From Alphaproteobacteria bacterium (lineage in GTDB: Bacteria > Pseudomonadota > Alphaproteobacteria > Rhizobiales > JAKIUO01), in contig JAJRRW010000091.1 in assembly GCA_024279115.1 (NCBI GenBank), positions 1 through 49,807 on the forward strand: 49,807 bases of DNA, given 5' to 3'. The translations under genes and the position numbers were made by a program. The notes under the pieces are model-generated. The model searched no databases. It was not told where the DNA came from and saw only the letters and a list, made by a program, of their open reading frames with translations. This document shows, piece by piece, positions 14,005 to 16,842 of this stretch; positions within the stretch are counted from its first letter, which is position 1; each line of letters opens with the position of its first letter.

Positions 14005-14841
14005 CTAAGACTGGGCGAGCACTGCCAGAGCCTTGTCGTGGAGCACTTGATTGGCGCTGGCGAGGATTTCTCCCCCTTGCGCGGGGTCGCCATTGTCCCA
14101 GGTCGTGACAATACCACCCGCCGCCCTGATAATGGGGATGAGCGGCGCGATGTCATACACCGCCAATCCCGCTTCGACGACAATGTCCAGCAGTCCCATA
14201 GACAGCAGGCAATAGGCGTAGCAATCATATCCATAGCGGGTCATGCGGGTTTGGTTTGACAGGCGCTGGAATTTTTCCCAGCCCCCCCGGTGGGCGAAAT
14301 GCTCGGGAGCCGTGCTTGACAGAACAGCCTGCGAGAGATCGTCAACGCAGCTTGTCGCAAGGCGCTTGGTGGCATCCTGGCCTCTGCGATAAAAAGCGCC
14401 ATTGGCTCCCCCCCAGAAGCGCTCCCCCGTAAAGGGCTGGTTCATCATGCCAAGGCGCGGCTGGCCCTTGTGGGCAAGGCCGATCAGCGTGCCCCAGGTG
14501 GGAGCGCCGATAATGAAAGCGCGAGTGCCATCAATGGGATCAAAGATCCAGCACAAATCAGCATCCGGGTCCTTGTTGGGAAATTCCTCACCGATAATGC
14601 CATGATCTGCAAAGCGCTTATTGATGAGATCGCGCATGACCTGTTCGGCCCCCCGGTCAGCCTCTGTGACCGGGTCGTAAATGCCCTTTTCGTGTTTTTC
14701 ATCCACGTCCAGCTTGGAGCGGAAAAACGGCAGAATGACATTTGCCGAGCAATCCGCGAGATCGTGAAGGATGGGCTCGAAAACCGAAAAATCAGTGGTA
14801 TTTATGTGACTATTGCGGTCGTTGGAAGGTTGATCACGCAT
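14005..14841 (-). CDS. hisN: Histidinol-phosphatase, inositol monophosphatase family
   Basis: This 278-residue Mg-dependent phosphatase has the family's metal-binding sets: DPVTEADRGAEQ, GEEFPNKDPD, DPIDGTRAF, and a C-terminal VYDIAPLIPIIRAAGG. The phrase YDIA.LIPI.RAAGG with VTTWD is typical of the HisN subgroup, which converts L-histidinol phosphate to histidinol in histidine synthesis in many actinobacteria and alphaproteobacteria. A general inositol-monophosphatase role cannot be excluded. The ATG at 14841 is clear. It diverges from a putative small RNA gene at about 14996-15080. Confidence 0.85.
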   Translation of the reverse strand: MRDQPSNDRNSHINTTDFSVFEPILHDLADCSANVILPFFRSKLDVDEKHEKGIYDPVTEADRGAEQVMRDLINKRFADHGIIGEEFPNKDPDADLCWIFDPIDGTRAFIIGAPTWGTLIGLAHKGQPRLGMMNQPFTGERFWGGANGAFYRRGQDATKRLATSCVDDLSQAVLSSTAPEHFAHRGGWEKFQRLSNQTRMTRYGYDCYAYCLLSMGLLDIVVEAGLAVYDIAPLIPIIRAAGGIVTTWDNGDPAQGGEILASANQVLHDKALAVLAQS

Positions 14842-14995
14842 AAATTCGGGTCTTTCTGTGTCGTAACTGTGGCTTATATGTGGTGCATCGCGGCAACATG
14901 CAGTGTAAAATTAGCACATATGGCTGATTAATAATTGCCGAATCGCTTATTAGTTCGTACTCTGAACCTGTCTCGACAAACGGATTATCTCATAT

Positions 14996-15080
14996 CGTGG
15001 CAGTATGGATGATCCCGAGTTGGATTATTTCCTCTCTGTGTGAGAAAAGATCGCAAGTTTCCTCTTGCGGTCTTTTTTTT
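14996..15080 (+). ncRNA. mmgR: Putative trans-acting small RNA, mmgR/suhB (alpha-r8) type
   Basis: About 80 bases end in a strong intrinsic terminator and hold no open frame. A small 5' hairpin is possible (GATCC at about 15011-15015 with GGATT further on), followed by an unpaired TTTCCTCTCT at 15029-15038. From memory, the alphaproteobacterial mmgR/alpha-r8 family has a short unstructured pyrimidine core, about TTTCCTCCCT, just before its terminator and a length near 77 nt. It was first named after a neighbouring suhB-like phosphatase gene, and here a gene of that family (hisN) is divergent from it. The 5' end is estimated from terminator position and typical length. Confidence 0.5.
15049..15080 (+). 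terminator. Intrinsic terminator of the putative small RNA
   Basis: GATCGCAAG at 15049-15057 pairs with CTTGCGGTC at 15064-15072 (one G-U pair) around a TTTCCT loop and is followed by eight T residues. This is the strongest intrinsic terminator in the window on the plus strand. Read from the minus strand it has only a four-T tail, so it may also weakly terminate the upstream N-formylglutamate amidohydrolase gene. Confidence 0.85.
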
Positions 15081-15140
15081 GTGCGTGTCATTTTCATATT
15101 GAGCAGGACCTGCTGCGGCCCCTGACTGTTATTGAACGGT

Positions 15141-16043
15141 TCATTCAGCTGCGAGGCGCGAACCAAATGACAGATCGGGGAGCGAATTGATCAGCGCCTT
15201 GGTCAAGCTCTGCAAATGGCTGCGCAACTCCTCAAAACCGGAGGTTTTTTCCAAAGTCCGTTCATTGAGATAGAGCCGGCGATTGATCTCTATTTGCAAT
15301 ACGTGAATACCGTTTTGCGGTTTGCCATATTGTTTTGTCACATAGCCCCCGGCATATGGCTTGTTGACGCTGACATGGTAGCCCATGGATTGCAGTTGGC
15401 AGCGCACCATATGGGTCAACTCAAAATCGCAGCTTTTATCAAACAAATTACCAAGCACAAAGTCGGGGGGAATGTCTTTGAAGCCGGGCAGATTGCCAGA
15501 GGGCATGGAATGGCAATCGATCAATATGGCGTGCTGGCAGGTTTTCATGGTATTGGCAATCAGCGTGTGTAGTGCTGCGTGATAGGGGTAATAGAGATGA
15601 TTGATCCGCGTTTGAGCCTCATCGAAATCGAGTTTGTCTGTATAGATTTCGCGTCCCTGGGAAACGATACGCGCGATAGCCCCCAGGCCACTCTTCACCT
15701 TGGCTGAATCTTCAATAGCAAATTCGGGGAGCGGGCCAGCAAACAGCTCGGGATCAAGTTCGAACGGATGGCGGTTGAGGTCGAGATAGGCCCGTGGCAC
15801 CAAAGAATGTATGAAATGCGCCCCTTGAGCTGCGACATGGGCAAACAGCTCGTCGACATAGGCGTCTTCAGAACTGCGCAACTGCATTGGCGAGAGGTTC
15901 GAGTTTTGCAAAAAGGCGCGCGGGTATATACGGCCGCTATGGGGGGAGCTGAAAATAAACGGGCCGGTTGCCGGGCACGCAGTTTCAAGCGCAAAAGCTG
16001 GCTGGAAATTTTCCTCGATGGTCTGGAGTTCTTGTGATGCCAT
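15141..16043 (-). CDS. N-formylglutamate amidohydrolase family protein
   Basis: This 300-residue hydrolase matches the FGase family. It shows FSSPHSGRIYP (metal ligand His), LRSSEDAYVDELF, PRAYLDLNRHPFELDP, ILIDCHSMPS and a C-terminal LQIEINRRLYLNE. Family members hydrolyse N-formyl-L-glutamate to formate and glutamate in histidine degradation. In alphaproteobacteria a copy regularly lies beside cpdR without hut genes, as here, so its true substrate may differ. The protein has no signal peptide and is complete. It is divergent from cpdR across about 400 bases. Confidence 0.85.
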   Translation of the reverse strand: MASQELQTIEENFQPAFALETACPATGPFIFSSPHSGRIYPRAFLQNSNLSPMQLRSSEDAYVDELFAHVAAQGAHFIHSLVPRAYLDLNRHPFELDPELFAGPLPEFAIEDSAKVKSGLGAIARIVSQGREIYTDKLDFDEAQTRINHLYYPYHAALHTLIANTMKTCQHAILIDCHSMPSGNLPGFKDIPPDFVLGNLFDKSCDFELTHMVRCQLQSMGYHVSVNKPYAGGYVTKQYGKPQNGIHVLQIEINRRLYLNERTLEKTSGFEELRSHLQSLTKALINSLPDLSFGSRLAAE

Positions 16044-16449
16044 ATTGTCCGGGCCCAGATTGGTTGCTTGCGGCCTCTATATCGCCGATTTCAGACCCTG
16101 TTTTAGCCCGAATTTTCTTCTAAAACAAAGTCTGTTGAAAATTAACATGAAAAGCGCGCCGTTTTGGACAGAGTTTTCCCGTGTTATTTTTATTGATTTG
16201 GATTGTTTGCGTTGAGTGAGTAGGGTTCAAACAGGCGTCAAAGCGCTTAAGTGTGGTGCTTTATATGTTGTATCTGGATCTGTAAACGGACTGTTAGTTT
16301 GCTGGTTACATTATTTGTTATGGATATGCGCATAAGATATGTGACCAGATACCAGCGACCTGCTAGGTTGCTCGTATCATATTGTGAGAGGCGATGCTTG
16401 CTCACCAGCTAAGGGTCTAAGTCGTAGCGAAATTAGAGGCAGGAAAAAG
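16044..16449. other. Divergent intergenic region before cpdR
   Basis: No gene is visible. The region holds the promoters of the flanking divergent genes, a ten-base palindrome TATGCGCATA near 16325-16334, and a hairpin AGCGACCT-GCT-AGGTTGCT at 16354-16372 about 80 bases before the cpdR start. I could not find a full CtrA box (TTAA-N7-TTAA), although cpdR is under cell-cycle control in related bacteria. Confidence 0.4.
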
Positions 16450-16842
16450 ATGGCGGTAAATGAACCCCGGAAAATGAGTATGCAACGTATTCTTTTGGCT
16501 GAAGATGATGATGATATGCGCGGTTTTCTGGAGCGCGAGTTGAAAAAAGCCGGTTATGATGTCGTGGCCTTCGGCAATGGGCTGGAGGCTTATGAGCGTT
16601 TGTGCGAAGAGCCTTTTACATTGCTTTTGACGGATATTGTGATGCCGGAAATGGATGGCATCGAGCTGGCGCGCCGGGCGGCCGAATTTGATCCCGATAT
16701 CAAGATCATGTTCATCACCGGATTTGCGGCTGTGGCGCTCAATCCTGACAGCAAGGCGCCAAAAGAGGCCAAGGTGCTATCCAAGCCGTTTCATTTGCGT
16801 GATCTGGTGGCACAAGTCGAGCGTATGGCACAAGAAGACTAG
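16450..16842 (+). CDS. cpdR: Cell-cycle response regulator CpdR
   Basis: This is a 130-residue single-domain receiver. It shows the acidic cluster AEDDDDMR, the phosphoacceptor Asp in LLLTDIVMPEMDGIELARRA, the Thr in FITGFAAVAL and the Lys in VLSKPFHLRDLV. The AVALNP stretch and the absence of an output domain match CpdR. Unphosphorylated CpdR brings ClpXP to the pole to degrade cell-cycle regulators such as CtrA and PdeA in Caulobacter; phosphorylation through the CckA-ChpT relay inactivates it. AGGAA at 16441-16445 supports the ATG at 16450; internal ATGs at 16474 and 16480 are alternatives. The placement next to an FGase gene and tRNA-Val is typical of the group. Confidence 0.9.
   Translation: MAVNEPRKMSMQRILLAEDDDDMRGFLERELKKAGYDVVAFGNGLEAYERLCEEPFTLLLTDIVMPEMDGIELARRAAEFDPDIKIMFITGFAAVALNPDSKAPKEAKVLSKPFHLRDLVAQVERMAQED

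Follow-up and report, generated by a model that had tools for sequence, protein, structure and literature searches.

What is encoded in the 299-base gap between hisN, a histidinol-phosphatase gene, and a gene for N-formylglutamate amidohydrolase (FGase) in the alphaproteobacterial genome considered here? The window, that is, the whole stretch of 49,807 nucleotides that was analysed, corresponds to contig C99 in a draft genome of 2.83 Mb (G000; 98% complete). A first-pass annotation had placed in the gap a candidate small RNA of the mmgR/suhB family. The evidence reviewed below points to a small RNA gene of about 80 nt that is syntenic with the FGase-linked alpha-r8 (mmgR) RNAs and is probably their orthologous, strongly diverged descendant, with its own promoter, the aid of Hfq, and a regulon other than phasins. 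The candidate lies on the plus strand, antisense to hisN and FGase. Regulation of hisN in cis is ruled out by this strand.

Structure of the candidate RNA gene

Table 1. Coordinates of the candidate RNA gene, its parts and its neighbours in the window
Feature	Position	Strand	Basis or remark
hisN, histidinol-phosphatase, inositol monophosphatase family	14005..14841	-	TIGR02067, 292.6 bits (cut-off 275.15); PF00459
-35-like hexamer CTGTCT	14968..14973	+	putative, read from the sequence; 17 bases before the -10-like hexamer
-10-like hexamer CATATC	14991..14996	+	putative promoter element; invariant in 5/5 genus members
Proposed small RNA gene, about 78-80 nt	15002..15081	+	predicted start set by the -10-like box, predicted end by the T run; conservation block
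5' hairpin, stem 15011-15015 with 15022-15026	15011..15026	+	stem pairs kept in 96% of cells across 5 sequences
Core TTTCCTCTCT	15028..15037	+	9/10 identical to alpha-r8 10-mer TTTCCTCCCT
Intrinsic terminator: 16-pair stem, 6-base loop, T8 tail	15042..15080	+	folding, alignment, sequence
FGase gene	15141..16043	-	PF05013, 236.6 bits; convergent with the RNA
cpdR-type response regulator	16384..16842	+	NF046022 above cut-off; conserved neighbourhood member

A promoter-like stretch, a 5' hairpin, a core and an intrinsic terminator follow one another on the plus strand (Table 1). The two promoter hexamers were read by eye, and a consensus promoter scan gave no match; in the other four genus members the -35-like hexamer differs at 0 to 2 bases and the spacer is 17 or 18 bases long. 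The first-pass annotation had described a core close to the conserved family sequence and a strong T8 terminator, and both descriptions hold. The core differs from TTTCCTCCCT by a single base change that is fixed in all five genus members, and a hairpin at 15042-15079 with a folding energy of -18.7 kcal/mol (z -6.6; none of 200 shuffles was as good) is joined to a T8 run at 15073-15080. A simple terminator scan left the hairpin unlisted on the plus strand and listed a weaker minus-strand version of it.

Hairpin and terminator pairs are retained in 98% of cells of the five-genome alignment. Substitutions in the 5' hairpin are one-sided only, and a compensatory change (on both sides of a pair) is absent from the five aligned sequences. 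The window contains two sites that differ from TTTCCTCCCT at no more than one base, of which the site at 15028 alone is followed by six T at most 55 bases downstream; such a combination of core and T run was held by 2 of 80 shuffled window strands.

Conservation within the genus

The candidate stretch is 91-93% identical to the window across the genus (5/5 genomes), and the flanks, the coding tails of hisN and FGase included, are 45-70% identical. Mean identity to the window is 0.93 for the 5' part of the RNA (44 bases), 0.91 for the hairpin, 0.82 for the promoter stretch, 0.70 for the two coding tails, 0.65 for the hisN leader, and 0.45 for the 59 bases adjoining FGase; the conservation peak spans 0.91-0.96, as against 0.45-0.70 in its surroundings. 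Judged from these alignments, the stretch is under selection, and since it is conserved in the genus, the candidate RNA is more than a chance occurrence. A covariance model built from the five genus sequences (R1) recovers exactly these sites, each genus genome having a single full-length match with E no higher than 4e-20; one of them has an extra match to part of the terminator's reverse (G004, E 0.004). Among the remaining 145 of the 150 order genomes, R1 gave three weak matches only (E 0.005-0.008).

Conservation of this kind might also reflect a shared, partly bidirectional terminator or 3' region of the FGase gene, with no independent plus-strand RNA. FGase ends 60 bases away, and the same hairpin is terminator-like on the minus strand. 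However, the 44 bases before the hairpin, unneeded by a terminator, are equally conserved (0.93 vs 0.91), the promoter-like stretch is raised (0.82) whereas the 59 bases on the FGase side reach only 0.45, and the T8 tail sits on the plus strand; this explanation is very unlikely. The only reading frame noticed inside the candidate RNA has 12 codons (15005-15043), and a 12-residue peptide, possibly leaderless, with its ATG at 15005, its stop at 15041-15043 and the terminator directly behind, is a highly improbable product of the locus. Although this frame (MDDPELDYFLSV) is open with the same stop in four of five species, the stop is lost in the fifth, three of the four varying codons are nonsynonymous, and the changes are spread equally across the three codon positions (2, 2, 2); no ribosome-binding site is seen, and directly behind there is no plus-strand gene to attenuate.

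Relationship to the alpha-r8 family

How close, then, is the putative alpha-r8 descendant to the family described by RF00519 (alpha-r8 / mmgR / suhB)? The covariance search that the first-pass annotation had named as a check went against it: RF00519 at its gathering score found no match in the whole window. When the gap alone was searched, RF00519 topped the list at 19.6 bits against a cut-off of 41, with the model covered end to end (15007-15087); its E value of 0.071 over 4227 families corresponds by our own arithmetic to about 2e-5 for a single family. RF00519 at E<=5 had no match at this site in the four congeners, and a whole-genome search (E<=0.001) returned only another locus, not the hisN-FGase site. 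A model built from 21 canonical alpha-r8 RNAs with an automatic, poor structure (R2) missed the hisN-FGase site. The same alignment with a hand-set, corrected structure and the filters off (R3) ranked the site first in each of four congener loci (10.8-11.9 bits) and only fourth in the window (10.1 bits, E 0.72). Searched against 92.5 kb of other loci, R1 returned just two matches at E<=10, both at FGase-linked alpha-r8 sites and both weak (E 0.36 and 1.9).

Judged on sequence only, kinship with alpha-r8 is weak, and because covariance-model scores are low or missing, it rests mainly on position and architecture. Among the traits of RF00519, a Rho-independent terminator and FGase linkage opposite a phosphatase gene were found. 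The combination of a weak hairpin with the canonical core UUUCCUCCCU behind it was not; the hairpin is present, and the core reads UUUCCUCUCU in all five genus members (9/10 identical). The RNA is filed as a divergent syntenic relative, not as a member of RF00519, because it scores below the cut-off and carries the fixed core change. The earlier family assignment survives in part, with position, strand, part order and neighbourhood standing as a lead and the covariance score falling short.

Like FGase-linked alpha-r8 / mmgR / suhB, the window RNA lies between FGase and a COG0483-type phosphatase gene on the opposite strand, and it shares with the FGase-linked RNAs a length of about 77-80 nt, a short 5' hairpin, an unpaired core (UUUCCUC-CU) and an intrinsic terminator. 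Unlike alpha-r8, it reaches 19.6 of 41 bits and has a C to U change in the core, an AT-richer terminator stem, and GUGUGAGA where alpha-r8 has a AGACUUGGG segment; its PhaR boxes are lost, and its genome is without detectable phaC or phaR. The Caulobacter crescentus RNAs SisA-SisD are described as alpha-R8 siblings, SisA lying downstream of an FGase gene as in the window; in contrast to the window RNA, they carry the canonical 10-mer. Pairing of these siblings with the sponge CrfA on Hfq is reported (PMC12559287).

Elsewhere in the genome, a second alpha-r8-like RNA is found between aspS and a DUF1465 gene (C28:14806-14880; L001:1501-1575). This aspS-linked RNA scores 37.9 bits with RF00519, just below the cut-off, and 29.3 with R3, is conserved in all five genus genomes, has a GC-rich terminator, and retains CCTCCCT and ACTT, not TTTCC. 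None of the 30 order-relative RF00519 loci (L002-L031) has an aspS context.

Synteny of the FGase-linked slot

In most species, an alpha-R8 copy is reported to adjoin the FGase gene, with TTTCCTCCCT quoted as the 10-mer (PMC12559287), and S. meliloti sm8/mmgR is described as sitting between two opposite-strand genes (PMC2573895). The suggestion that the phosphatase neighbour fits the suhB context agrees with the presence of hisN and with a published account in which suhB RNA is made from the strand opposite that of a phosphatase gene of COG0483 (PMC1273637).

An FGase gene (E<=1e-20) was found in 54 of the 61 genomes searched. Thirty FGase loci were taken, 25 of them outside the genus, together with 80 named loci; one locus (L044) ends at a contig edge. 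The exact TTTCCTCCCT lies antisense near the FGase end in 20/25 order-relative and 52/80 named loci, a hisN-like gene is present in 18/25 and 50/80, and cpdR adjoins FGase in 22/25 and 74/80, respectively. Conversely, an FGase match is present in 25 of the 30 RF00519 loci (L002-L031). In a genome of family f43 (G046), only about 50 bases separate the end of the hisN match from the FGase match (L039), which leaves no room for the RNA.

Since it recurs across order-relative and named loci, the order hisN / RNA / FGase / cpdR is old. A distance of 113 bases separates the window core from the end of FGase, a value inside the range observed in relatives. The window RNA is the occupant of the alpha-r8 slot, with a matching place, strand, and order of hairpin, single-stranded core and terminator. 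A real small RNA unrelated to alpha-r8, which would have taken over this gap and would merely resemble the family in its core, would fit the weak or missing covariance scores, a terminator stem without the family's GGCC-rich sequence, and GTGTGAGA after the core where the family has AGACTTGGG. Such a replacement is unlikely, however, in view of the same gap, strand and part order, the 9/10 core bases, a typical core-FGase distance, and the altered alpha-r8 RNAs at the FGase slot in other PhaR-less lineages (G009, G059 and G012; 27.6-38.2 bits).

PHB genes, PhaR boxes and the distribution of RF00519

The control of PHB granules that the first-pass annotation cited for mmgR is unsupported for this organism. 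PhaC_N and PHB_acc_N (PhaR) had no match in the 98%-complete draft, in which a missing contig is possible, or in congeners G002, G003 and G004 (the last 88% complete). Congener G001 has both matches, within a clustered, complete-looking set of phaZ, phaC, phaR and phaA (C216:13000-22000, L159). A PHB cluster in one of five genus genomes suggests recent loss or patchy distribution. Contamination as the source of these genes was rejected: their contig also carries a transaminase gene that belongs to the genus, with 91, 89 and 80% identity to its counterparts in G002, G003 and G000, respectively. The transaminase gene of G002 is followed by other genes, not a PHB cluster; that of G000 lies near a contig end, and the matching neighbour site is unreadable there. 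By our own reading, NRPS-like and phosphopantetheinyl-transferase-like genes lie beside the transaminase gene in G002 (C96, L166:9693-17452).

PhaR is reported to bind the mmgR promoter in S. meliloti, and its palindrome consensus has the core YGCRNYGCR (PMC12542648). This motif lies upstream of the 10-mer in 16/18 order-relative loci (two of the 20 were left out because their flanks were short) and in 41/51 named loci (1 of 52 dropped), with 0.6 and 1.6 expected in shuffles. Among the genus upstream stretches it occurs in 1/5, 144 bases before the core; elsewhere it lies mostly 38-75 bases before. The RNA gene of G001 has no PhaR box although the genome has PhaR. A PHB function of this RNA in its host is doubtful, since neither PhaC nor PhaR was detected and no PhaR box lies close to the promoter.

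Across the order, 249 genomes at least 90% complete were screened, with RF00519 above cut-off in 205 and PhaR in 215. A strong RF00519 match was present in 201/215 PhaR-positive vs 4/34 PhaR-negative genomes (Fisher p 9e-24), and in a 61-genome sample that overlaps this one, in 40/46 genomes with PhaR vs 2/15 without (p 3e-7); these p values overstate the evidence because the genomes are related. Fourteen PhaR-negative genomes were identified by elimination from the listing. As read from lists, the PhaR-negative genomes with a visible family belong to f1, f4, f6, f9, f14 and f51, where none of them is above the RF00519 cut-off, and to f15, f22 and f33, where some are. Exceptions are four f43 genomes (G046, G085, G114 and G140) with PhaR and no RF00519 match at E<=1e-4, and four genomes (G025, G153, G170 and G199) with a strong match and no PhaR. 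Literature searches, in which the key 2016 survey of where alpha-r8 occurs (Lagares, Roux and Valverde) figured as a citation, turned up no paper on such a coupling of alpha-r8 or mmgR with PhaR or FGase; the coupling may have been published before.

Proposed mechanism and implications

The putative alpha-r8 descendant would be transcribed from its own promoter, opposite hisN and FGase, and would end at the intrinsic terminator. With Hfq (hfq is present in all five genus genomes), it would act as a trans-acting antisense RNA whose unpaired core UUUCCUCUCU would mask purine-rich ribosome-binding sites, a mechanism modelled on published accounts of MmgR and SisA (PMC7143759, PMC12559287). The C to U change in the core would still permit pairing with G, and pairing to GAGGA-type sites may change little. 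With a promoter without PhaR boxes and PHB synthesis lost in most of the species, the regulon would most likely be one other than phasins. In G000 and G002 the RNA gene is the sole location of exact 11-base complements of the core, whereas G001, G003 and G004 have such complements away from it; no target is named.

A broader scenario is offered as tentative and, on balance, rather doubtful. The shape of alpha-r8 may be held by its PhaR link; without PhaR and PHB, the RNA might be lost or freed, its operator dropped, and its core changed and then conserved anew for different mRNAs, perhaps carbon- or nitrogen-linked, and the aspS-linked RNA would retain a portion of the former core. The accounts available tie MmgR to PHB in a single species and map no direct target (PMC12559287, PMC7143759).

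The association of RF00519 with PhaR over 249 genomes amounts to a simple, testable rule, and the locus illustrates that an Rfam cut-off can miss diverged relatives that their neighbourhood reveals. If a lineage keeps an alpha-r8 descendant without PHB genes, the role of the RNA would be separable from the context of its discovery.
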